Of a stretch of 20,944 nt of DNA, positions 687 through 20,944 are shown piece after piece (the first letter of the stretch is position 1; every line of letters starts with the position of its first letter). A program made the position numbers and the translations under genes. The notes under the pieces are model-generated. The model was given only the letters and a program-made list of their open reading frames with translations. It was not told where the DNA came from and made no database searches. The stretch is from a virus: the IMG/VR virus record IMGVR_UViG_3300033388_001728, positions 1 through 20,944 of that record; one strand, 5' to 3'.

Positions 687-759
687 GTTTCTCCATGTTT
701 TTAATTATGTTGTTTGTTTCAGTTTTTATACCCAACAGTTTTAAAATAAACTCTATCAT
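667..759 (-). CDS. Micro-ORF coupled to the groEL stop (30 aa)
   Basis: The ATG shares an ATGA with the groEL stop codon, the classic arrangement for translational coupling, and the frame runs for 30 residues: a hydrophobic start (MIEFILKLLGI) followed by a polar, Lys/Glu-rich end (MEKHEEKKA). The same kind of overlap joins several better supported genes in this window. It may be a real micro-protein or only a device that passes ribosomes on to the 56-residue gene, whose ATG lies inside its last codons. No homology is recognised. Confidence 0.4.
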   Translation of the reverse strand: MIEFILKLLGIKTETNNIIKNMEKHEEKKA

Positions 760-2348
760 GCTCTCATATTTGTTACAATAGCATTAGTGCTAAGTATAGT
801 TGTTGCAACACTAACCGCATTAGTCAATGCGTTCTTAGTTACTTTTAGAGGATCAATAACACCTAACTCATACATATCACCATACTTATTATTCTTTACA
901 TCATAACCATAATTGTATTTTTTATCAAACACCTGGTCAATAACTTTATCATTATCTTTACCAGCGTTAGCTAATATTTGCATAAGTGGTGAACGTAGAG
1001 CTGCTTCTAATATTAACACAGCGTCTTTCTCATCTTGTTTTTTGGTTTTAGATTTTAGCTTTAATGATTCTCTAAACAATGCTATACCTCCACCAGCTAA
1101 TATACCTTCTTCTAAAGCTGATCGTACTGCACAAACTGAATCATCAACTCTATCATACTTTTCTTTTTGTTCTATATCTGAGTTACCTCCAACATAGATA
1201 CAGCCTATAGAACCTGCTAAACTTGCTATACGTTCATTGATAAAGTCTTTAGTTGATTTATCTTTTGTGGTTTTATGTTGTTCTTTTAGTTCTTTAATTC
1301 TATCGTTTAACTCTGGTGTGCTATTATCTTTTTTAAATATAACAGTTGAATGTTCTCCAACAATAATTTTATCAGCTACACCTAAATCGTGTGGCATTAT
1401 TAAACTTAAATCATCACCAGTCTTTTCAGAATAATATTTAGCACCAACTGATAATGCTATATCTTGCATAAGCTCGTGTTGTTTAAATCCAAACTGAGGT
1501 GGTTGAATGTTACAAAACTTTAATCCATTACGAACTACGTTAGCCGCTAAAGTATTTACTACGTTAGTTGAGCATGGTGCAATAATTAATAGCTTATCTC
1601 CGTTGTTTATAACTGGCTTCAGAACATTTTCTATTTGAAGTATATTATTAATTTCTGAATCACAAACTAATATCTTAACATCTTCAAGCACACATTCATC
1701 TTTCTTTTGATTATTGATAAATAAATTAGAAGAATAACCTCTGCTTATTTTAATACCGTTAGTTACCTCAGCATACGTGTCTGATGTCATAGACTTTTCT
1801 ACAGTTACCATTCCATTAATACCTACTTGAGTATATGCGTCTGTAATTATTTTACCTATCTCTTTATCATTGTTTGCTGATATAGATGCAATATCCAACA
1901 ATCTGTCTTCTGTTACTTTTTTAGAATTACTTTCTAAGTTAGATATAATTTTAGACGCATGATGGTTTATGTGTCTAATAACCTCTGTAGTGTTTGACTC
2001 TGATGTTAATGTTTGTTGTCCAGCTTTTACCAAAGCTTCTGTTAATACAATTGCTGTTGTTGTTCCATCACCTGCAGATTGTGCAGTTCTGGTCGATGCT
2101 TCCTTTACCATTCTAACTGCTAAGTTTTCAATAGGATCATCTAAAAATACAGACTGTGCTACAGTTACCCCATCTTTAGTTACAGTCATTCCAGAAGTAT
2201 GTTCTGGTGATTCTAACAATACTGTTTTACCTAATGGTCCTAATGTACTTTTAACTGCTTTAGAAATTTTTGTGATTCCGTCTATTAACTTGTGACGAGC
2301 CTCCTCATCAAAGCTTAGACTTTTTGGTATATAGCCTTGTGTATTCAT
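756..2348 (-). CDS. groEL: GroEL-like chaperonin (Cpn60), phage-encoded
   Basis: A full-length 530-residue chaperonin, the ATP-driven folding ring. The equatorial ATP site is intact: STLGPLGKTV (34-43), TKDGVTVA with Asp59 matching E. coli Asp52, and GDGTTT at 93-98. The C-terminal equatorial half keeps the RVDDSV...ALEEGILAGGG block, with Asp403 matching the catalytic Asp398, and YELGVIDPLKVTKNAL near the end. The apical domain (about 190-375) is the most diverged part, as expected if it binds phage substrates. It lacks the GGM repeat tail of cellular GroEL and ends STNAIVTNMRA. The gene heads the minus-strand cassette, with a candidate TAnnTTTG promoter and TTTGGAAT repeats upstream. Phage chaperonins are known from jumbo phage EL and from virioplankton; folding of capsid or other phage proteins is the likely role. 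Confidence 0.96.
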   Translation of the reverse strand: MNTQGYIPKSLSFDEEARHKLIDGITKISKAVKSTLGPLGKTVLLESPEHTSGMTVTKDGVTVAQSVFLDDPIENLAVRMVKEASTRTAQSAGDGTTTAIVLTEALVKAGQQTLTSESNTTEVIRHINHHASKIISNLESNSKKVTEDRLLDIASISANNDKEIGKIITDAYTQVGINGMVTVEKSMTSDTYAEVTNGIKISRGYSSNLFINNQKKDECVLEDVKILVCDSEINNILQIENVLKPVINNGDKLLIIAPCSTNVVNTLAANVVRNGLKFCNIQPPQFGFKQHELMQDIALSVGAKYYSEKTGDDLSLIMPHDLGVADKIIVGEHSTVIFKKDNSTPELNDRIKELKEQHKTTKDKSTKDFINERIASLAGSIGCIYVGGNSDIEQKEKYDRVDDSVCAVRSALEEGILAGGGIALFRESLKLKSKTKKQDEKDAVLILEAALRSPLMQILANAGKDNDKVIDQVFDKKYNYGYDVKNNKYGDMYELGVIDPLKVTKNALTNAVSVATTILSTNAIVTNMRA

Positions 2349-2922: not shown

Positions 2923-3383
2923 TTAGAGGTTGAGGGTTCCACATAGTTATACGTACAACTGCTGTTATAGGAAACGTAGTTTTTTTTATAGGGGGGGTTG
3001 TTTTTTTAAAAAATTTTAGCGGAATATTTTAGCTTTTACCTGCGTCCCTCCGCCCAGACACACCCCGACTCACGTACACGCACACGCATTTAGCTTCAGT
3101 CTAACGAACTAACTCCAATACGAGCTCCTCCCACCCTTACAAAGGTGCAAGAGTAAGGAGAAGTAAAGAGACTTCCCTTAGCCACAGTCCGACACACATC
3201 ACACACAAACAAAACACACCGACAGACTCAGGACAATAAACTGATAGCCAAAGAAATAAAAGAAAGAAAGTATTAATTCTGACGAAGAGTCAAAAATATT
3301 AAAAAATCCGTCAGTCAAACATTAGGTTATTAAGTATTTATTATGTATCTTTGTAGAAGTTATTAATCAAAACAAATTAAATT
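2923..3383. other. Divergent gene-free region with homopolymers and G-poor C/A-rich DNA
   Basis: These 461 bases separate the minus-strand chaperonin side from the plus-strand early genes. Near 2980-3015 lie T8, G7, T7 and A6 runs. About 3040-3290 is far richer in C on the plus strand than the rest of the window, poor in G, and contains CACA and ACAC runs. Hairpins include 3154-3180 (10 bp with one bulged A), which competes for GTAAGG (3153-3158) with CCTTAC (3135-3140), and CTGACG/CGTCAG (3279-3284 with 3309-3314). No ORF or tRNA is evident. The plus-strand early promoter sits at the right end. An origin or a non-coding RNA is possible. Confidence 0.6.
3322..3353 (+). promoter_or_regulatory. 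Early promoter copy 1 (TTAG, 20 bases, TATCTTTG)
   Basis: TATCTTTG at 3346-3353 matches the Bacteroidota -7 consensus TAnnTTTG, and TTAG lies 20 bases upstream in place of TTTG. The spacer starts GTTATTAA and ends TTATG, as in the copies at 5495 and 7705. Transcription would start about 3360, some 24 bases ahead of the ATG at 3384. Confidence 0.8.
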
Positions 3384-3902
3384 ATGCAAAGCAAATATTA
3401 TAAATCAAGTGTTGAACCTGCAATAGATTCAGCAATCAGAGTTGGACTTGAACAACTAATGGAGACAGTAGAAAATCAAGTTTATGACACAGTTGGAAGT
3501 AGCACAAGTTATTATGAAACAAGAGATGAATTACAGAATCTTCAATGTGTAGTTGAAAATTATGCAATAATACATAAGGGTGCAAGTTTAGAAACAATAA
3601 TAGGTGATGTTGTAAAGACTGTTGTATACAAAGCACTTGGATTAGATGGTGATGAAAATTCATCATGGGTAAGTCCTGATGAACTTGAAAAACGTAATCC
3701 TAATAAATTCAGAAAGGTTTTAGATGTAGATGTTAAACTTAGAAATGAAATGACTGAATTTGAATTATGGAAAGAAGACAATACGATTATAACGTATGGA
3801 GATGGTAATCCAATATACAGTACACAAGATGCATTATATCGTAATAAAATTAAAGGTGATAAGGCACTTTATGATTATTTCATAAACGAATTTCGTTCAT
3901 AA
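3384..3902 (+). CDS. Unknown protein, first gene of early unit 1 (172 aa)
   Basis: A soluble, acidic 172-residue protein beginning MQSKYYKSSVEPAIDSAIRV. The first half is mainly helical (VGLEQLMETVENQVYDTVG, TRDELQNLQCVVENYAI); the second half has a charged WVSPDELEKRNPNKF segment and ends YDYFINEFRS. No catalytic motif, Cys cluster, signal peptide or membrane segment is visible, and the family is not recognised. It is the first gene after early promoter copy 1 with a very short A/T-rich leader, so it is probably among the first phage proteins made. Genes in that position often counteract or redirect the host, but that is inference from position alone. The gene is followed by the first of two twin RNA hairpins. 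Confidence 0.85.
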   Translation: MQSKYYKSSVEPAIDSAIRVGLEQLMETVENQVYDTVGSSTSYYETRDELQNLQCVVENYAIIHKGASLETIIGDVVKTVVYKALGLDGDENSSWVSPDELEKRNPNKFRKVLDVDVKLRNEMTEFELWKEDNTIITYGDGNPIYSTQDALYRNKIKGDKALYDYFINEFRS

Positions 3903-3918
3903 AATCACTTTTCCAGAT

Positions 3919-3980
3919 CCTACACCTCGCAATGAATTAACTGCGGGGATTTGTAGGTAGAAAACAAACGTTAAATTAAA
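3919..3980 (+). promoter_or_regulatory. Twin RNA hairpin element, copy 1
   Basis: Outer stem CCTAC (3919-3923) pairs with GTAGG (3953-3957). Inner stem CCTCGCA (3925-3931) pairs with TGCGGGG (3942-3948) with one G-U pair; the loop is 10 bases. An ATTT internal loop separates the stems on the 3' side. TAG and one base follow, then the 19-base tail AAACAAACGTTAAATTAAA (3962-3980), 10 bases before the ATG of the next gene. The same plan recurs at 4636-4697 with compensating changes in both stems, so it acts as RNA. It has no U-tract and is not a terminator. Its function is unknown. Confidence 0.75.
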
Positions 3981-3990
3981 ATATATAAAA

Positions 3991-4620
3991 ATGAAAGATA
4001 CAATTAAAAGATTAACTTTAAAAAAACTTCGTTCAAAAAGAAGAAGTTATGTAACAAAAGATGGTAGATGCATAGTAAGAAAAAAAGAATTGATACAGAT
4101 GGTTTGTGAAGCACAACTTGAAAAGAATGGTTACAATTCTGAATCTATAATATCTTATCTTGATTCAAATGGACAAATGCAATTTGCAACTCGCCCAACT
4201 AAACGTGAAATAGAATTAGCTAAGAAAAATGGAGAGACACCAAAACTTAATATGTGTCAGGGTTTCTATAATGTAGCATTTAGTGAATGGATACGTGAGG
4301 GATTGATTACACGTAGTCGTGAAGATGGATACCAACTTACAGATTTTGGTAGACTATTTTGTGAGACTGATACACGTGCATATGAGATTGAATATTGGAA
4401 ACGTAAATCTAAAAGTGAAAAATTTTGGAAAAATCATTGGAAAAAAAGGTTTATGGATAAGCAATTAGATTATAAAGATTCTCAATCCTTACTTGGACAA
4501 ACTGAAGAACAATTAGAGTTTGAAAAAACTAAAAATTGGGTATTGAATGGTGCATCGCTTGACAAAAAAAACATTCAGGTAATAATTGATGGACATCGCT
4601 ATAATTTAAGTAAAGAATAA
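3991..4620 (+). CDS. Unknown basic protein with a winged-helix-like centre (209 aa)
   Basis: The 209-residue protein starts with a very basic arm (MKDTIKRLTLKKLRSKRRSY), then a KKELIQMVCEAQLEKNG helix. Around residues 93-125 the pattern FSEWIREGLITRSREDGYQ followed by LTDFGRLF looks like the recognition helix and wing of a winged helix. The C-terminal part has a Trp/Lys-rich helix (WKRKSKSEKFWKNHWKKRF) and ends with a short strand pair (IQVIIDGHRYNL). The fold call is by eye and tentative; RNA or DNA binding is likely from the charge. The gene lies between the twin hairpin elements, so it may be regulated through, or may itself bind, these RNAs; that is speculation. No known family is recognised. 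Confidence 0.88.
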   Translation: MKDTIKRLTLKKLRSKRRSYVTKDGRCIVRKKELIQMVCEAQLEKNGYNSESIISYLDSNGQMQFATRPTKREIELAKKNGETPKLNMCQGFYNVAFSEWIREGLITRSREDGYQLTDFGRLFCETDTRAYEIEYWKRKSKSEKFWKNHWKKRFMDKQLDYKDSQSLLGQTEEQLEFEKTKNWVLNGASLDKKNIQVIIDGHRYNLSKE

Positions 4621-4635
4621 TTTGTTTTGTTTTTT

Positions 4636-4697
4636 CCACGTGCCTCAATGCTAATCGCATTGGGGATTTCGTGGTAGTAAACAAACGTTAAATTAAA
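4636..4697 (+). promoter_or_regulatory. Twin RNA hairpin element, copy 2
   Basis: Outer stem CCACG (4636-4640) pairs with CGTGG (4670-4674); inner stem CCTCAATGC (4643-4651) pairs with GCATTGGGG (4657-4665) with one G-U pair and a 5-base loop. GGGGATTT, TAG and the 19-base tail AAACAAACGTTAAATTAAA (4679-4697) match copy 1 exactly, while the stem bases differ in pairs. It sits in the leader of the 49-residue gene at 4708. Confidence 0.75.
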
Positions 4698-4707
4698 TAA
4701 AAAACAA

Positions 4708-4857
4708 ATGATAATAAATAACAAAGATGTGAAAGAAAAACTTATTGATATGATAATTCCATTAATTAAAAATACTCATAACGAACAAGATGTAAAAGAT
4801 TTACAAACTATGTCTAAAGAAGAGTTAAGATTAATTTATAAAGATTTGACATCATGA
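4708..4857 (+). CDS. Small protein of unknown function (49 aa)
   Basis: An ORF of 49 residues starting MIINNKDVKEKLIDMIIPLI and ending MSKEELRLIYKDLTS. It is predicted helical and amphipathic, with no membrane segment. Its ATG follows the conserved tail of the second twin hairpin by 10 bases, the same distance as at 3991, and its TGA overlaps the next ATG as ATGA. These two contacts make translation likely. The family is not recognised. Confidence 0.7.
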   Translation: MIINNKDVKEKLIDMIIPLIKNTHNEQDVKDLQTMSKEELRLIYKDLTS

Positions 4858-5421: not shown

Positions 5422-5556
5422 ATGGACTTACGAAGCTCGTGAAGATCCTACACTAAAATCATGGACTTACGACTAAAAATTAGACTAAAATATATTTGGT
5501 TATTAATTATTTTTTATGTAATTTTGTAGTAATTATTAACTAATAGGACTTACGAA
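5422..5556 (+). repeat. GGACTTACGA short direct repeats
   Basis: GGACTTACGA occurs at 5424, 5463 and 5546 within a gene-free stretch, the first two as ATGGACTTACGA and the last ending directly at the ATG of the 5557 gene. A further copy, GGACTTACGAAG, lies inside the coding sequence at 7553-7564. The segment between the first two copies also repeats AGATCCTACAC (5443-5453) from the left arm of the first twin hairpin (3916-3926). The role is unknown. Confidence 0.5.
5495..5526 (+). promoter_or_regulatory. Early promoter copy 2 (TTTG, 20 bases, TAATTTTG)
   Basis: TTTG at 5495-5498 and TAATTTTG at 5519-5526 are exact Bacteroidota -33 and -7 elements 20 bases apart. The spacer (GTTATTAA...TTATG) is nearly that of the 3322 promoter. 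It lies after a terminator and 30 bases before the ATG at 5557. Confidence 0.88.
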
Positions 5557-7063: not shown

Positions 7064-7720
7064 ATGAAAAAATTTATAGCAACTATAGCATGTGATTCAC
7101 AAAGTGGTTCGCATGGAGTAATAGACAGACATCGCACAACAACCTCTTTAGTTGGCGTGGGTTATACCCATAGCGAACAAGCTCTTATACTTTCAAAACT
7201 AAGAGAATGGAAAAAGGGTGAAGACTTATATTTTTGGAAGAGATACCCCAAAGACATAAATTTTTTAGAATTAAGACCAGAAGAGTGTACACCAGAGTTA
7301 ATCGGTAATGGATCTTTAGCACAAAGATTAAAAAATATACCTTACACACATTTTTATTACATGACTAATAATGTGTTAAAAATTACAGATGGTTACAACT
7401 CACAAGTTCTGGTCGTAAAACCATACGATGAAAATATTTATGCTGTAATCACAGATATAGACACTTTAGTGCCTGAGTTTGTAAACAAAGAAACTTACGA
7501 GCTTGTAAAAGAAAATGCAGACAATCTAATTAAGATGTATTTTGACACAGAAGGACTTACGAAGGATATTTCAGGATATTCAAAAGACTCAGGTTTTAGG
7601 ATACCTAATGAAGTAATTGATTACAATAAATTTAATTATGACACAGGAATGGTAAGAGGTGATAGCTATGATTTTCCTGCAAAAGACAATTTTTTACATA
7701 TTGATTTGGTTGTTAACTAA
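7064..7720 (+). CDS. Unknown protein (218 aa)
   Basis: This 218-residue protein starts one base after the previous stop. It begins with a hydrophobic strand (MKKFIATIACDSQSGSHGVI), followed by a polar RHRTTTSLVGVGYTHSEQA segment, a helix (ALILSKLREWKKGEDLYFWKR) and mixed alpha/beta sequence. His and Asp pairs (SHGVIDRHR, THFYYM) could form a metal site, but no known catalytic signature is present. The DNA for residues 164-167 carries the GGACTTACGAAG repeat also seen ahead of gene 5557, and the last codons of the gene hold early promoter copy 3. The first 15 residues are hydrophobic, but a true signal peptide is not convincing. Confidence 0.85.
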   Translation: MKKFIATIACDSQSGSHGVIDRHRTTTSLVGVGYTHSEQALILSKLREWKKGEDLYFWKRYPKDINFLELRPEECTPELIGNGSLAQRLKNIPYTHFYYMTNNVLKITDGYNSQVLVVKPYDENIYAVITDIDTLVPEFVNKETYELVKENADNLIKMYFDTEGLTKDISGYSKDSGFRIPNEVIDYNKFNYDTGMVRGDSYDFPAKDNFLHIDLVVN

Positions 7721-7736
7721 TTATTATGTATTTTTG
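7705..7736 (+). promoter_or_regulatory. Early promoter copy 3 (TTTG, 20 bases, TATTTTTG)
   Basis: TTTG at 7705-7708 and TATTTTTG at 7729-7736, spaced 20 bases, match the Bacteroidota consensus. The spacer again begins GTTnTTAA and ends TTATG. The -33 part lies inside the last codons of the 7064-7720 gene. The leader to the ATG at 7847 is about 100 bases. Confidence 0.85.
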
Positions 7737-7791
7737 AAGGAATTGTTTTCATTTTGAAAGAGTTGATGTTAGGCGAGATCAACAACGTAAT

Positions 7792-11456: not shown

Positions 11457-13837
11457 TAACAATATTTAAAGATATAAAAAACACTGATCAGCCTTTTTAC
11501 AGAGAAGTAGAGGTAACATTAGAAAGGATTGAAAAAGGAAATTCAGCTGAAACTGTAAAAAAAATCAGAGCTGAAAAAGATAAAGAAAAAAGAAATGAAT
11601 TAAAAAAATTATTACCCGCCATATGTTTTAGTGGTACGTTTAATAAAAGAAATGACAAGTCTTTACTTGAACATAGCGGGTTAATATGTTTAGATTTTGA
11701 TGGTTATAAAACAAACAAAGAATTATTACAAGAAAAAGAAAAGCTAACTAAGAATAAATATATTTACAGTGTATTTGTTTCACCAAGTGGTAAAGGGTTA
11801 AAAGCTCTGGTCAAGATACCCCCGATAGTTGAAAACCATAAAAAGTATTTTAAGTCTCTTCAAAAATTTTTAGACTCACCTTATTTTGATTCTACTTCTC
11901 AAAACATATCTCGAGTATGTTACGAAAGTTATGATCCTTTAATTTATGTAAATAAAAATTCAAGTGTATGGGAAAAAATTGAAGAAACAGAATTTGTTGA
12001 AGTCAATAAAAATATAGACAAACCTACAATACCAATAACAGATGAAAATAAAATTGTAGAAATTCTTATAAAGTGGTGGGAAAAAAAATATGGATTAAAA
12101 AATGGAGAACGAAATAATAATGTTTATATACTTGCAGCTGCCTTTAATGATTTTGGAGTTCCTCAAAACTTAGCAGAATATGTAATGGGTAACTTTGATT
12201 CAAAAGATTTTAATCTTAGTGAAATCAAAAGAACAATACAATCAGCATATGCAAACACACAAAATTTCGGTACAAAATATTACGAAGATGAGGACAGAGT
12301 TAATTTAGTTAAACAACAACTAAGACGTGGAGTGCCAAAAAAAGAAATACGATGTCAATTAGAAGACGAAAATATTGATGTCGTAGATATTGAAAACGTA
12401 ATGGTTCGTCTGGAAGAAGAGCAAGCAGTAAGACAATTTTGGACAAAAAATGATAAAGGTGTTGTAAAAATTACTCATATACTATTTAAAAACTTTTTAG
12501 AAGATAATGGTTTTTATAAATTTAATCCTGAAGGAAGTAAAAACTATGTATTTGTTAGAGTAACTAATAATTTAATTGATCATACTTCAGAAAAAGAAAT
12601 TAAAGATTTTGTTTTAAATTATTTATTAACTATTGATGATTTATCTGTATATAATTATTTTGCAGAAAAAACTAAATATTTCAGAGAAGAGTTTTTAACT
12701 CTTTTAGCATCCATAAATGTGTTTTTTATTGAAGACACAAAAACAACTGCATATTTATACTACATGAATTGTGCAGTCAAAATCACTACAAATGATATAA
12801 CTCTTATAGATTATATTGATTTAGGAGGTTACGTTTGGAGAGACCATGTAATTGATAGAAACTTTACTATGTGTAAAGTAGGAAAATGTGATTACAAAAC
12901 TTTTATATCTAATATATGTGGAGAAGACCAGAGTCGTATAGATTCTATGGAATCAACGATTGGTTACTTATTACATGGTTGGAAAAATTTATCCTATTGT
13001 CCTGCAGTAATTTTAAATGACGAGGTAATATCTGACAATCCAGAGGGTGGTACAGGTAAGGGGTTGTTTATGAATGGACTATCTCACATGAAAAAATTAG
13101 TAACAATAGATGGTAAAAGTTTTACATTTGAAAGATCATTTGCATATCAATTAGTTTCTGCCGACACACAAATATTATGTTTTGATGATGTAAAAAAGTC
13201 TTTTGATTTTGAAAGATTATTTAGTGTAATAACAGAGGGATTGACTTTAGAAAAGAAAAATAAAGATGCAATTAAAATACCTTTTTCAAAATCTCCAAAG
13301 GTTGCATTGACTACTAACTATGCTATAAAAGGAAAAGGATCTTCATTTGAAAGAAGAAAATGGGAATTAGAACTTGCTCAACATTACACTAAAGAATTCA
13401 CACCTTTAGTAGAGTTTGGAAAGCTTATGTTTGGAGAGTGGGATGATAATGAATGGTGTCAGTTTGATAATTATATGATACAAAATCTACAAGTTTATTT
13501 AAATAAAGGATTGCTTAAAAGTCAATTTGTAAATTTAAAAATTAGAAAATTATCTGCAGAAACGTGCCATGAATTTATTGAATGGTGTGGTTTAATTGGT
13601 AGTGGACAGACAAATGAATTGTTAAAACCAAATAAAAGAATTTACAAATCAGAGCTTTACGAAGACTTTATTAATGAACATCCAGACTTTGCTCCTAAAT
13701 CAAAATTTACTATTTCACGAATTAAATTTTGGTCATGGATCAGATCGTATTCTATTTTTAAATACGGAGTAGAATATAATGAGGGTAGAAGTTTAGACGG
13801 AAGGTATATTGAATTTATATATGAAGATGAAATTTAG
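11450..13837 (+). CDS. Primase-helicase: BT4734/VirE-like N-domain plus SF3 helicase
   Basis: A 795-residue two-module replication protein. Residues 1-190 match the BT4734-like (VirE-type) domain found in Bacteroidota mobile elements, with primase-polymerase-like motifs CLDFDG (80-85), SPSGKGLKALV (about 111-121) and ISRVCYES. Residues about 200-285 form a helical PriCT-like linker (KWWEKKYGLKNGERNNNVYI). The C-terminal part is a superfamily 3 helicase: Walker A GGTGKG (about 532-537), Walker B QILCFDDV (about 573-580), and motif C KVALTTNYAI (about 617), followed by an arginine in SFERRKWELEL. It would prime and unwind DNA at the fork. It opens a new unit after a terminator, and its last bases overlap the helicase gene. 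A polymerase partner is not in the window. Confidence 0.93.
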   Translation: MEITIFKDIKNTDQPFYREVEVTLERIEKGNSAETVKKIRAEKDKEKRNELKKLLPAICFSGTFNKRNDKSLLEHSGLICLDFDGYKTNKELLQEKEKLTKNKYIYSVFVSPSGKGLKALVKIPPIVENHKKYFKSLQKFLDSPYFDSTSQNISRVCYESYDPLIYVNKNSSVWEKIEETEFVEVNKNIDKPTIPITDENKIVEILIKWWEKKYGLKNGERNNNVYILAAAFNDFGVPQNLAEYVMGNFDSKDFNLSEIKRTIQSAYANTQNFGTKYYEDEDRVNLVKQQLRRGVPKKEIRCQLEDENIDVVDIENVMVRLEEEQAVRQFWTKNDKGVVKITHILFKNFLEDNGFYKFNPEGSKNYVFVRVTNNLIDHTSEKEIKDFVLNYLLTIDDLSVYNYFAEKTKYFREEFLTLLASINVFFIEDTKTTAYLYYMNCAVKITTNDITLIDYIDLGGYVWRDHVIDRNFTMCKVGKCDYKTFISNICGEDQSRIDSMESTIGYLLHGWKNLSYCPAVILNDEVISDNPEGGTGKGLFMNGLSHMKKLVTIDGKSFTFERSFAYQLVSADTQILCFDDVKKSFDFERLFSVITEGLTLEKKNKDAIKIPFSKSPKVALTTNYAIKGKGSSFERRKWELELAQHYTKEFTPLVEFGKLMFGEWDDNEWCQFDNYMIQNLQVYLNKGLLKSQFVNLKIRKLSAETCHEFIEWCGLIGSGQTNELLKPNKRIYKSELYEDFINEHPDFAPKSKFTISRIKFWSWIRSYSIFKYGVEYNEGRSLDGRYIEFIYEDEI

Positions 13838-16273: not shown

Positions 16274-16517
16274 CGGACTTTAATCTTTCTTGCATTTCCA
16301 CCAATTCTTTACACTTTTCATACTCTTCAGTATAAATGAAATACTCAATAAGATCATCATAGACAGGATCATTGTATCTTAGTTTTTCTTTTTGTGGGTT
16401 ATATAAAAACCAAAGCTGATCACCATTATCTAAAAAATCAGACAAAGTTTTTTTACCTGTAATTAATTCAAAGGTGTTGTTAAAACACTTGTCTTCATCA
16501 AAATTACTCGTTTCCAT
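16260..16517 (-). CDS. Small acidic protein downstream of the giant gene (85 aa)
   Basis: An acidic 85-residue protein beginning METSNFDEDKCFNNTFELIT, with a LIEYFIYTEEYEKCKELVEM helix near the C-terminus. Short acidic helical proteins of this kind are common among phage structural genes. It overlaps the giant protein gene by 14 bases and is therefore translated with it; a role as assembly partner or chaperone of the giant protein is plausible from that context only. No family is recognised. Confidence 0.8.
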   Translation of the reverse strand: METSNFDEDKCFNNTFELITGKKTLSDFLDNGDQLWFLYNPQKEKLRYNDPVYDDLIEYFIYTEEYEKCKELVEMQERLKSAIYS

Positions 16518-19500
16518 ATAAGCTATAATATAATTCAGGGTTTTCTCTTTTCATTTGAGACTTAGGCATCAACTTGTTTTTATTTTTACTTCTTTTTTGA
16601 TCTTGTAATAATTTATATAAATCAGGATCAGTCTTTTTTATATATTGCATATCTTCAGCAGAAAAAGACATACCCAAAGATGGTTGATATGATGGACTAA
16701 TACCTAATATATCATAAATGGCTTTGGACTGTTCTTCTGTATCTCCTGCAAAAGCATTATATACTCCTACAAAAGGATCAACCTGTGCTCCTATAATTAT
16801 CTCAACAAGTGGCTGTAGTCCTTTCACACTACTTCCTTCTTGCGTAGCTTTAGCTATTTTTCTAAATACAGATTTGTATGGATTAACTACATCATCCCCA
16901 TATCCTGGTCTTCCTTTTGCTTTATTAATTACCTCTTCAGCTGCACCTCCTATCAAAGGTATTTGATATAATAAATTTAAACCATAAAGAGCGTCTTTTA
17001 ATCTTTCCATTACTACTTCTTCGTCCTCATCATTACCTTTTAGTAATTTAGCCATGTTAGCTGCTAAAGCAAACATAACGTTTGCACCTGCATAATTTAA
17101 TGCTATTGATTTTATGTCTTTACTTCTTACGTTACTTATTCTTCCTTTTACTCCTTTACCTTCTCCTAATGAACGCATAATGTTTGCCTGAGCTTGTAAA
17201 ACTTTATTTATTTGTAAAAACAATGTACTACCAAACATAGTAAAAGCTCTGGATAAATTGTCTTGATTTTGTTGAATAGGTATTTTATCTGTTCCTCTTC
17301 TGGACTGCTGAGTTGCATTATACTCATTAAATGCTGCTGCAGCTTCTGCTTTTGACATACCATTTTCAATATTTGCTTCATAGTTTATCATGTATCCCAT
17401 AACACCAAGTATATCTCCCATTACTGTTGGACTGGCTGCAGCTTGTTTAAATAATTTTACAAATCTATTTATTTGTGCCTCTCTATCTTTTCCTGCTGTT
17501 CTTTTTTCTACAGGTTTTACCGTTCTACTACCAGTCTCTAATCTGTAAATATCACCTTCTAAACCTTTACGTACACGATCAGCAAAGTCTGGAGATATTT
17601 GTTTTGCTAAATCCATATACTTTGGTAAGTTTGCTAAAATTTTAGTCATACCAAATATAAACTGAACAGGTTTTGGCACCTTACTTCCTTTAACTCCAGG
17701 AAAATCTTCATAAGCATTTACAAAAGATGTTGCTTGTTTTACCAACTGCACAGCTTTAAATGATAAAGCAAATCCAGTAAACTTACTTAATAACCTACCA
17801 ATCCAATCAGGAGCAACCGCACCAGCGTTTGGATTAATGGCTAAGTTTATTGACCTATACACTGTTTGTTCAATACCCAATTCTTTCATCAATGTATTTA
17901 CCGCTGGTGTGTTAAAAATAGCTGTTAAGTTTTTTACTCCTGGTGCGTAAGCTTTGAACCGTTCCATTTGAGTTACATGATTTTCTAAAGCAGCTGTAAA
18001 GGTTTCGTTTTCTGATATCTCTCCTTCAGTATCACTTCTGTCTTTTAAAGCAGGTGCAGTTTCTGCATTAAATACTTTACTAAAATTACCAGCTATTAAA
18101 TCTTTAGACACATCTTCTTTTGAGACACTTCGTGTAGGAAAATAATTTTCTACAGGATTTAGATTAACATAATTGTTCTGAACATACACATCGTTTATAC
18201 TTTCAAAATAACTATTACTTAAATAATCTACAATCTTATCTGCAAACTCTATTGCAATTGGTCCAATTTCATCTTCAATTATTCTCAATTGAGTTTCACC
18301 TATTCCATTCTTTAATAGTTTTTTTCTTTGCACAGGATTTTTAGACAATGCATATATTCTCATCAACTGGTCAATACTAAAAGTTTTAGGATCTTTTCTT
18401 CCTTCTACTTTTAACTCTACTAAGTCTTGTGGGATTTTTGTTTTTAAATCTGCATAATCATCTACACCATCAATAGATGCTGCAATAGAATTTAAGTTTT
18501 CCATTTGATTGTAATATCCACGTAATGCTTTTGTATGCATTCTATTTAATGCTAAGTAAACATTTTCGTAAAAAAATGTATTTTTCTTTGCAACATTGTC
18601 TAACAAATTCATCAGGGTTCCCAAATGAGACAGTCTGTTTCTAAAATAATTTGCTATACCAATACCTTTTGTTAATGGATACGTTTCCCACCATTTAGCT
18701 AATCTTTTTCTAAATGGTCCTAATGATCTTTGGTTTTCATCCTGAGCTAAATCGTTTTCATTTTTAAGAGTACCATCTTCATTAAACAACATTGGATAGT
18801 TTTCTCTTATTTGATTTATAGCTTGTTGAGATAACGAATTATTTATTTCAGCTCTTTCTAATCTTGACATGTTAAGTAAAGCTATTGATGCTTTCTTAGT
18901 GTCTTTCAATTGTTTCAAAACTCCTTCAACTGCTTCTAATTCTAAACTTTGTAGATTAGCAAATGTATCATAAGCTAATACTTTATTAATTAAAGACACT
19001 TCTTGAACTGTTAGCTTTTCACCACGCTTTTGTTTTTCTAAGGCAATATTAGTTTCTTTTTCTTTTGCTTTTATTTCGTTTGCAATTTTAAGTAATGCCT
19101 TTTGTCTTGGTGTAAAGCCATCAGCTTCTTGTTTATCTGACTTTGTAACAGCCATAACAACTTCTAAAATATCTTTGAAAAACTGCTTACCTTGTGCTTC
19201 TAAGTTTGTAGCTTTTTGTTTTGGTGCTGTACCTTGTGCCTGTTTTCTGACCAGGTCTTTTATTTCTTTTATACGCTTTTGTTTTAATTTGTTTCTTTGT
19301 CTACCAATAACATCAAATATTTTATTACCTACAGATAAAATAGAGTCAGGAGTTGCTTTTGCTATTTCATTAATTAAACGTGTAAGTTCTGTTTTACTTA
19401 GTTGAGCTTCTTTTGGTAAATAAGTTTTAAGAAGTTTGTTTAGTTGTAATTGTATTCTTCTTAAATCTCTTTGTCCTTTTTTTCTTATAAATAAATCTCT

Positions 19501-20944
19501 CTTTAATCTGGCTATACGTCTTCTGATTGCTTTGCTTTTTACTTTATTTAATACACCATCATAAGATATTTCTAATTCAGCCTTTGTTATATCAGGTTGT
19601 TTTTTAAATATATCATTGTTTCTTAATATTTCTAATCCTCTTTTAGCTACTTGTATTGGTGTAGCATCTGGATTTTCTGCAATATATTTATTTAACTCAT
19701 AAGTTATTTCATTGTAAAGAGTTTGCCCTTCATTTATACCACCCTCAACAGTACCAAATTCAAATGGCATACCAGCCATATCTTGTCCTTTTGTTTCCAG
19801 TGCAGCTCTTGCTTCGTCTACAGATAGCTTTCTATTGTTTCTTAAGTATTCATATATAGCTGCGTCACTATAATCTCTCCCTCTTGCTTTTGCAACAACA
19901 TCATTTATACTATCTGACTTTTGAAATATTATATCTGCATTGTTTTGTGATTCAGTTATAATCTGAGTCTTAACTTCTGATTTAGTTTTGTATCTACCTT
20001 CTACTATAGATACATTACGAACCTTGTATTCTACACCTGATTTTTGTATTAATACCTCACTTCCTGATTGTCTGTTTTGTGGTAAATGTAATATAGGTTT
20101 ACCACCATCTTTTATTGATATGTGAAATGGATAGCTTGGATGAGAATCTTCTTTAACCTCAACAGGACTGTTGATTTCTACAATTGCATAAACATCTCCA
20201 GTATTCAAACCTTTCGTAAGTTGTTCAGCTGCTATACGAGCAATTAAATCAACTAACCCGTTAGCAGTTGCTGATGTTTTCTTTGCTAAAGACTTATTTG
20301 GATTACCATCTAAAAAATTAATAATAGCACTTCTATCTTCTTTAGGAAGATTTTTAGCTATTTCTCCTACAATATCTCTAACCACATCTCCTCGTTTTTC
20401 AAAGGTTGATGTTTTTGGATTAGTAAAATATTTTTGTATATCTGTTTTTAAATCTTTAGCACTTTGTCTTAAATTAATTGTACCTCCTGCACTTTTAACA
20501 GCTGCAGAAACTGCACTTCTAAAATTAGATGGGGTAATTAATTTATTATCTAACATTGTGTTTAATATTGCTAAAGTAGAATTTACACCAGAAGCACTAC
20601 TAACTAATTTTGCATCTGATCCTTTAGTTAAAGTTAAGTATGCTTTACCACCATTAGTTTCTAATTGTTTATTTAAATTTTTAGCTATATTATTTGCAGT
20701 TCCTTTGTTACCTGAAGCCCATACATCACCAAACTTAGTTACAAAAAACACACCACCCTCACCTTCAAATATAACTTTACCATTATATTTAATCTCTCCT
20801 GCTAACATGTCATCTGGAGCTGTTATAACAGTTTCGTTACCTTCTAAGAAACTTACATCTTTAGGTTCAGTAACTAAACCTTTTTTAATCATTTCTGCAA
20901 TACTATCTTGTTGAGTATAGCTTACCTCAAAGCCACCTACGATT
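16504..20944 (-). CDS. Giant internal-virion or polyvalent-type protein, cut by the right edge
   Basis: The frame is open for 1479 codons and reaches the edge with no stop; the first ATG at 20892 is preceded by 17 sense codons, so the true start probably lies outside. Visible parts, numbered from that Met: a mixed region (1-300) with GKVIFEGEGGVFFVTKFGDV; a very basic helical and coiled-coil region (about 440-700); a NYFPTR motif near 917, like the YFPxxR elements in giant phage internal proteins; and a C-terminal helical part with hydrophobic helices near 1255-1325 (YAGANVMFALAANMAKLL, IPLIGGAAEEVI). This architecture suggests a virion protein ejected with the DNA or a large polyvalent protein. 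No lysozyme, protease or polymerase motif was recognised. Confidence 0.88.
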   Translation of the reverse strand, partial: IVGGFEVSYTQQDSIAEMIKKGLVTEPKDVSFLEGNETVITAPDDMLAGEIKYNGKVIFEGEGGVFFVTKFGDVWASGNKGTANNIAKNLNKQLETNGGKAYLTLTKGSDAKLVSSASGVNSTLAILNTMLDNKLITPSNFRSAVSAAVKSAGGTINLRQSAKDLKTDIQKYFTNPKTSTFEKRGDVVRDIVGEIAKNLPKEDRSAIINFLDGNPNKSLAKKTSATANGLVDLIARIAAEQLTKGLNTGDVYAIVEINSPVEVKEDSHPSYPFHISIKDGGKPILHLPQNRQSGSEVLIQKSGVEYKVRNVSIVEGRYKTKSEVKTQIITESQNNADIIFQKSDSINDVVAKARGRDYSDAAIYEYLRNNRKLSVDEARAALETKGQDMAGMPFEFGTVEGGINEGQTLYNEITYELNKYIAENPDATPIQVAKRGLEILRNNDIFKKQPDITKAELEISYDGVLNKVKSKAIRRRIARLKRDLFIRKKGQRDLRRIQLQLNKLLKTYLPKEAQLSKTELTRLINEIAKATPDSILSVGNKIFDVIGRQRNKLKQKRIKEIKDLVRKQAQGTAPKQKATNLEAQGKQFFKDILEVVMAVTKSDKQEADGFTPRQKALLKIANEIKAKEKETNIALEKQKRGEKLTVQEVSLINKVLAYDTFANLQSLELEAVEGVLKQLKDTKKASIALLNMSRLERAEINNSLSQQAINQIRENYPMLFNEDGTLKNENDLAQDENQRSLGPFRKRLAKWWETYPLTKGIGIANYFRNRLSHLGTLMNLLDNVAKKNTFFYENVYLALNRMHTKALRGYYNQMENLNSIAASIDGVDDYADLKTKIPQDLVELKVEGRKDPKTFSIDQLMRIYALSKNPVQRKKLLKNGIGETQLRIIEDEIGPIAIEFADKIVDYLSNSYFESINDVYVQNNYVNLNPVENYFPTRSVSKEDVSKDLIAGNFSKVFNAETAPALKDRSDTEGEISENETFTAALENHVTQMERFKAYAPGVKNLTAIFNTPAVNTLMKELGIEQTVYRSINLAINPNAGAVAPDWIGRLLSKFTGFALSFKAVQLVKQATSFVNAYEDFPGVKGSKVPKPVQFIFGMTKILANLPKYMDLAKQISPDFADRVRKGLEGDIYRLETGSRTVKPVEKRTAGKDREAQINRFVKLFKQAAASPTVMGDILGVMGYMINYEANIENGMSKAEAAAAFNEYNATQQSRRGTDKIPIQQNQDNLSRAFTMFGSTLFLQINKVLQAQANIMRSLGEGKGVKGRISNVRSKDIKSIALNYAGANVMFALAANMAKLLKGNDEDEEVVMERLKDALYGLNLLYQIPLIGGAAEEVINKAKGRPGYGDDVVNPYKSVFRKIAKATQEGSSVKGLQPLVEIIIGAQVDPFVGVYNAFAGDTEEQSKAIYDILGISPSYQPSLGMSFSAEDMQYIKKTDPDLYKLLQDQKRSKNKNKLMPKSQMKRENPELYYSLYGNE

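Follow-up and report, generated by a model that had tools for sequence, protein, structure and literature searches.

Bulged RNA hairpins between phage genes as a candidate family of intercistronic mRNA-processing elements

The window analyzed here is a 20,944-nt stretch of viral DNA (IMG/VR record IMGVR_UViG_3300033388_001728, positions 1 to 20,944). It contains two copies of a bulged hairpin, referred to as copies a and b, separated by the gene for a basic protein (the 3991 protein) and bordered by genes without an assigned function (Table 1). The 3991 protein has a predicted winged-helix region and a long helix, and it showed a weak PHROG match to a transcriptional regulator (E 0.0018). The motif TATCTTTG, which we take from its consensus to be a Bacteroidota-type −7 box, lies in one of three similar 44-nt repeats (3321-3364, 5494-5537, and 7704-7747) that carry TAnnTTTG-type boxes, each upstream of a gene cluster. 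These Bacteroidota-promoter-like repeats suggest a Bacteroidota host. The window also encodes a phage GroEL of 530 aa (756-2348, minus strand), which is 56% identical to that of MW202828 and ~37% identical to those of Flavobacterium elemo and immuto phages; a GroES-like ORF lies at 255-512. A 1462-aa ORF (16504-20892, minus strand) matched nothing in Pfam (E up to 0.01) and nothing convincingly in PHROG; it is probably an internal virion protein.

Table 1. Hairpin copies and adjoining features of the window. Fold z-scores are relative to dinucleotide shuffles.
Feature	Position	Strand	Details
TATCTTTG, presumed Bacteroidota-type −7 promoter box	3346..3353	+	precedes the first gene of the operon; part of a repeat that recurs at 5494 and 7704
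Gene upstream of copy a, 172 aa, no assigned function	3384..3902	+	stop 16 nt before copy a
Element copy a, bulged hairpin	3919..3957	+	sequence; fold z −4.62; model R2 match 51.1 bits, E 2.5e-7 in 1.17 Mb
Copy a, layout			CCTAC (3919-3923)-A-CCTCGCA (3925-3931)-10-nt loop (3932-3941)-TGCGGGG (3942-3948)-ATTT (3949-3952)-GTAGG (3953-3957)-TAG-A-tail (3962-3980); ATG 3991
Copy a, pairing			outer stem 3919-3923/3953-3957; inner stem 3925-3931/3942-3948; 3'-side bulge ATTT 3949-3952
Copy a, 3' flank	3958..3990	+	TAG, A, 19-nt tail 3962-3980, 10-nt A-rich gap to ATG 3991
Gene between copies, 209 aa, basic	3991..4620	+	stop 15 nt before copy b
Element copy b, bulged hairpin	4636..4674	+	sequence; fold z −5.08; model R2 match 73.3 bits, E 4.6e-12
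Copy b, layout			CCACG (4636-4640)-TG-CCTCAATGC (4643-4651)-TAATC-GCATTGGGG (4657-4665)-ATTT-CGTGG (4670-4674)-TAG-T-tail (4679-4697); ATG 4708
Copy b, pairing			outer stem 4636-4640/4670-4674; inner stem 4643-4651/4657-4665; loop 4652-4656; 3'-side bulge ATTT 4666-4669
Copy b, 3' flank	4675..4707	+	TAG, T, same 19-nt tail as copy a (4679-4697), A-rich 10-nt gap before ATG 4708
Gene downstream of copy b, 49 aa, no assigned function	4708..4857	+	

The original prediction described two copies with paired stems, an identical 19-base tail, and a 10-base gap to an ATG, all of which we confirmed from the sequence. The outer stems of the two copies do differ by compensating pairs, and the G-U pair that had been pointed out between CCTC and GGGG is present; across the family, 109 of 124 distinct copies retain this U-G pair. 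With up to three mismatches allowed, the tail occurs three times in the window (0.13 expected). The core hairpins fold at −16.3 (a) and −21.0 (b) kcal/mol, with the z-scores listed in Table 1, and when flanks were included the z-scores were −3.35 and −5.54, with no shuffle equalling either copy. A second hairpin in the window tail is weak and has just 3 bp (AAC-AAAC-GTT). The long identical tail is confined to the window genome and its close relatives, and the family core is the bulged hairpin together with the following TA.

Searches against Rfam 15 supported the suggestion that the hairpin belongs to no known class, both for the window and for other loci carrying it. The window gave no match at the gathering score, and relaxing the limit to E 10 produced only chance-level matches in the region. 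A scan of 12 carrier loci returned only tRNA, pistol, and hammerhead matches, none of them on the elements, and a scan of nine loci at E up to 2 gave no match on any element. The open-licence literature yielded no description of the motif, which may still be listed without a name in a large catalogue of candidate RNAs. The element is an uncatalogued structured RNA family, distinct from any named family.

Further copies were sought with patterns and covariance models. A gapped DNA pattern returned 53 loci from IMG/VR, mostly chance matches, but in four of them (L004, L020, L040, and L044) this hairpin was again present ahead of an ATG. Using the window primase as the query, 80 related viral loci were gathered. 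A descriptor scan yielded six well-aligned copies, from which covariance model R1 was built; in 1.3 Mb, R1 gave 58 sense matches and two antisense echoes, and these included weak matches that were nonetheless placed just before an ATG. A broader pattern, which fixes part of the 3' strand, matched at least 120 stretches of viral contigs, and models R2 and R3 extended the copy set beyond R1. In total, the covariance models added well over 100 distinct copies from viral contigs, almost all of them intergenic and on the coding strand, so that the additional copies proposed to be recoverable in this way were indeed found, in related and in unrelated phages. Most tested full records with any element carried one to four copies, which shared a strand except for weak antisense echoes. 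The family spans podovirus-like and siphovirus-like phages and occurs beside both early and capsid genes.

Cultured phages elemoF, Panino, phi46:1, phi39:1, Leef_1, hattifnatt, snusmum, and immuto gave no confident model match, and neither did the uncultured MW202828 and MW202897 (best score across all phages tested, 17.6 bits); blastn of consensus queries against cultured phages also returned no match. An element of host genomes was rejected, as a pattern slightly stricter than that used for viral contigs matched only two contigs in 84,980 GTDB species genomes. One of these (L255) is a 35-kb contig of a fragmented MAG, bearing a pistol ribozyme and two elements, and is probably binned phage DNA. 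The MAG is labelled Aliivibrio and holds two further copies on other contigs.

The family consensus is (C/A/U)CACC - N R - CCUC - stem - loop with AA - stem - GGGG - W UUU - N GUGG - U A. It comprises an outer stem of 4-5 bp, an inner stem of 6-9 bp, a conserved W-U-U-U bulge on the 3' side, and a 3' strand of N-GUGG followed by a near-invariant U-A. Among 36 aligned matches, 95.2% of cells pair, double changes occur in 9 of 14 pairs, and the covariation score is 0.507 compared to at most 0.095 for slid partners; for 124 distinct copies, the corresponding values are 92.3%, 12 of 14 pairs, and 0.548 (at most 0.084 for slid controls), these alignments being fitted to the model and the calibration rough. 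When all column pairs were ranked by mutual information in 101 dereplicated copies, the two stems came out on top and nothing else was recovered; a pseudoknot or loop-tail pairing, for which the ranking held no signal, was therefore discarded. In the primase-anchored set, which was built without the pattern that fixes the 3' strand, UUU-N-GUGG-UA was nearly invariant even where its 5' partner was unpaired. In the wider clade to which the window belongs, many copies are followed 3' of the core by a second hairpin (e.g., GGCA-ATAG-TGCC), with stems that compensate (GGCA/UGCC, GACA/UGUC, and GAGGA/UCCUC), and 36 of 91 tails reached the second-hairpin score vs. 10.7 after shuffling.

Covariation in both stems and the many copies bear out the earlier claim of selection on RNA structure, and the element is a genuine structured RNA under selection. 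Near-identical hairpins do stand before different genes in related phages, a pattern that would fit movement or conversion and could indicate a DNA-level element such as a recombination site for gene cassettes or a single-strand structure. We regard this as very improbable, as the copies sit in coding-strand junctions with RNA-type covariation and showed neither a cassette boundary nor a link to a recombinase; the conserved U-G wobble and the constant orientation to genes place the element at the level of RNA rather than DNA. A CRISPR-repeat mimic and an IS200/IS605 end were dropped for want of matching features.

Copies lie between the upstream stop codon and the next ATG, on the coding strand. 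The gap from the stop to the element was 11-20 nt in 76 of 150 copies, compared to 3.4% expected if positions were uniform, and in 44 of 98 after dereplication. This spacing puts the element just beyond a terminating ribosome. From the hairpin to the ATG, the spacing is larger and less constant (about 18 to 40 nt), and the genes downstream of the copies are mutually unrelated. The original prediction named the 3991 protein as a possible ligand, which did not hold: homologs were present in 3 of 35 element-carrying records, and elements precede many unrelated genes. An autoregulatory site of this protein was likewise rejected, since protein and element do not generally occur together, homologs being absent from 32 of the 35 carriers. 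Searching viral contigs with the 3991 protein returned no close relatives by that method.

The constant position just upstream of an ATG, together with sequence conservation of the bulge and 3' strand, would also be expected of a hairpin for translational control or insulation, in which a host or phage protein would read the UUU bulge and GUGGUA and set translation of the next gene. The ATG distance, however, varies while the stop gap is tight, the sole linked candidate protein is the one missing from most carriers, and the interleaving with ribozymes described below would be left unexplained. We consider such a role quite unlikely.

In many siphovirus-like contigs, a copy follows a gene of ~425 aa, and the one tested encodes a major capsid protein (Pfam PF05065, E 1.6e-30). 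The setting of an early operon proposed for the elements is too narrow. At locus L142 (7489-7548) and at similar loci, the element lies directly 3' of an HK97-type major capsid gene. A copy 3' of the major capsid gene in many phages could point to a transcription element, that is, a weak terminator, a pause, or a put-like RNA modifying RNA polymerase. The G+C-rich inner stem followed by UUU or UUUU would suit this role, and a hairpin with an adjoining conserved stretch resembles hairpin-stabilised pauses. The U-tract, however, is just 3-4 long and leads into GUGG, the outer stem covaries across it, copies occupy consecutive junctions rather than occurring once per operon, and the interchange with ribozymes would go unexplained, which makes a transcription element a long shot. 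An intrinsic terminator proper (a G+C hairpin followed by ~6 or more U) was rejected, as the element has only W-UUU and then GUGG.

Known ribozymes occupy neighbouring junctions in several carriers. The Rfam scan of 12 carriers located pistol ribozymes in L197 and L255 and a hammerhead in L181, all on the element strand. Whole-record searches of 50 records identified hammerheads in six and pistols in two, with ribozymes in seven overall. The models for these classes (RF00163 and RF02679) matched other junctions and never the elements, and identity of the element with either ribozyme was rejected on that basis. In record G040, a hammerhead (55599), an element (55956), a pistol (56363), and a second element (56670) follow one another within ~1.1 kb, all on the plus strand. 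Locus L197 has the order element, two genes, pistol, two genes, element, gene, element; its pistol occupies an ordinary stop-to-ATG slot with element-bearing junctions on both sides. Hammerheads alternate with elements in G055 and G050, and L255 combines one pistol with two elements. The pistols are located at 11888-11952 (−) in L197, 2367-2433 (−) in L255, and 56363-56427 (+) in G040. Type I hammerheads are located at 31928 in G005, 23536 and 24221 in G021, 55599 in G040, 3639 in G050, 25026 and 26055 in G055, and 4307 in G057; they mostly start within a few nt of the upstream stop and end 15-25 nt before the next ATG, and several score just under the Rfam cut-off yet keep the full core.

All ten ribozymes tested, from seven records, were on the element strand and at most 1.93 kb from an element, and a placement test using one ribozyme per genome gave a combined p of 4e-5. 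This association of strand and proximity could come partly from shared residence in accessory early regions. A single case of a swap was observed: a gene preceded by a hammerhead in G005 has a homolog in L076 (57.5% over 73 aa, E 6e-24) that is preceded by an element. Hammerheads, the class searched in the controls, were not significantly more frequent in carriers (6 of 50 records) than in controls (one weak match in 30), and one control record (G073) itself carries an element. Cutting between genes has a phage precedent among halophage early genes, where a hammerhead lies 13 nt upstream of a helicase gene and a mapped transcript 5' end falls within 3 nt of its cleavage site (PMC3088659).

The interchange and interleaving with hammerhead and pistol follow the same genomic logic as the discovery of pistol, which came from a search of intergenic regions near ribozyme-associated genes (PMC4604425). 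The element could accordingly be read as a new class of small self-cleaving ribozyme, in which the bulged hairpin, the 3' U-A, and perhaps the second hairpin would form an active site cutting between genes. The near-invariant unpaired UUU, U-A, and loop AA, as well as the lack of an Rfam match, are consistent with such a class. Against it, covariation yields no pseudoknot or multi-helix junction, only ~9 unpaired bases are conserved, and, in contrast to the arms of typical ribozymes, the GUGG helix strand keeps its sequence. We view this as a possible but unlikely reading. If true, it would add a very small natural ribozyme class, common in environmental phages and interchangeable with hammerhead and pistol for intergenic mRNA cutting.

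We favor, at a probability of roughly 0.55, a cis-acting intercistronic mRNA-processing element that is interchangeable with ribozymes, a reading that draws on sequence comparisons. Intergenic mRNA cleavage is best supported because of the intergenic position, the steady stop gap, and a leader that is A-rich and unstructured, with the interchange with ribozymes weighing most. Polycistronic phage RNA would be cut at or just 3' of the bulge, in the UUU/GUGGUA strand, more likely than not by a host or phage endoribonuclease. The upstream mRNA would then keep a protective hairpin shortly past its stop codon, and the downstream gene would receive a short A-rich unstructured leader that may suit ribosomes not reliant on Shine-Dalgarno sequences. 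Cleavage by a nuclease is somewhat more likely than self-cleavage, given the simplicity of the motif, a bulged hairpin in which few unpaired bases are invariant. Conservation of GUGGUA even without outer pairing also fits protein binding or an effect on RNA polymerase. The exchange with ribozymes suggests that intergenic cutting itself is the selected function of phage intergenic ribozymes, which is a long-standing question; if a nuclease cuts the element, it would show how phages of these hosts tailor their mRNAs.

Several known systems resemble the element in part. In the T7 early operon, RNase III processing sites are irregular intergenic hairpins with an asymmetric internal loop, lying between polycistronic phage genes. 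The element is likewise an irregular double-stranded hairpin between cistrons, but its stems are shorter, totalling ~14 bp, which is short for a classical RNase III substrate, and its bulge and 3' strand are conserved in sequence. The put RNAs of phage HK022 are ~65 nt long with two hairpins, one of them bulged, as is the case here; they act once near early promoters, whereas the elements are found at many junctions and in late genes. The SAS/ESAS repeats of cluster K mycobacteriophages are also repeated, almost all in one orientation and just upstream of many genes, with no established function, and ESAS are imperfect inverted repeats (17-bp repeats with a variable spacer) (PMC3203893). The element differs from them in sequence and host and in its strong covariation and ribozyme association. 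The closest parallel in placement is with intergenic phage hammerhead and pistol ribozymes, which use the same slots, strand, and gene clusters, with one gene family having either; there is no sequence or structural homology between them and the element. On the preferred reading of intercistronic mRNA processing, the element would work like known intercistronic processing elements, yet it is a separate RNA family.
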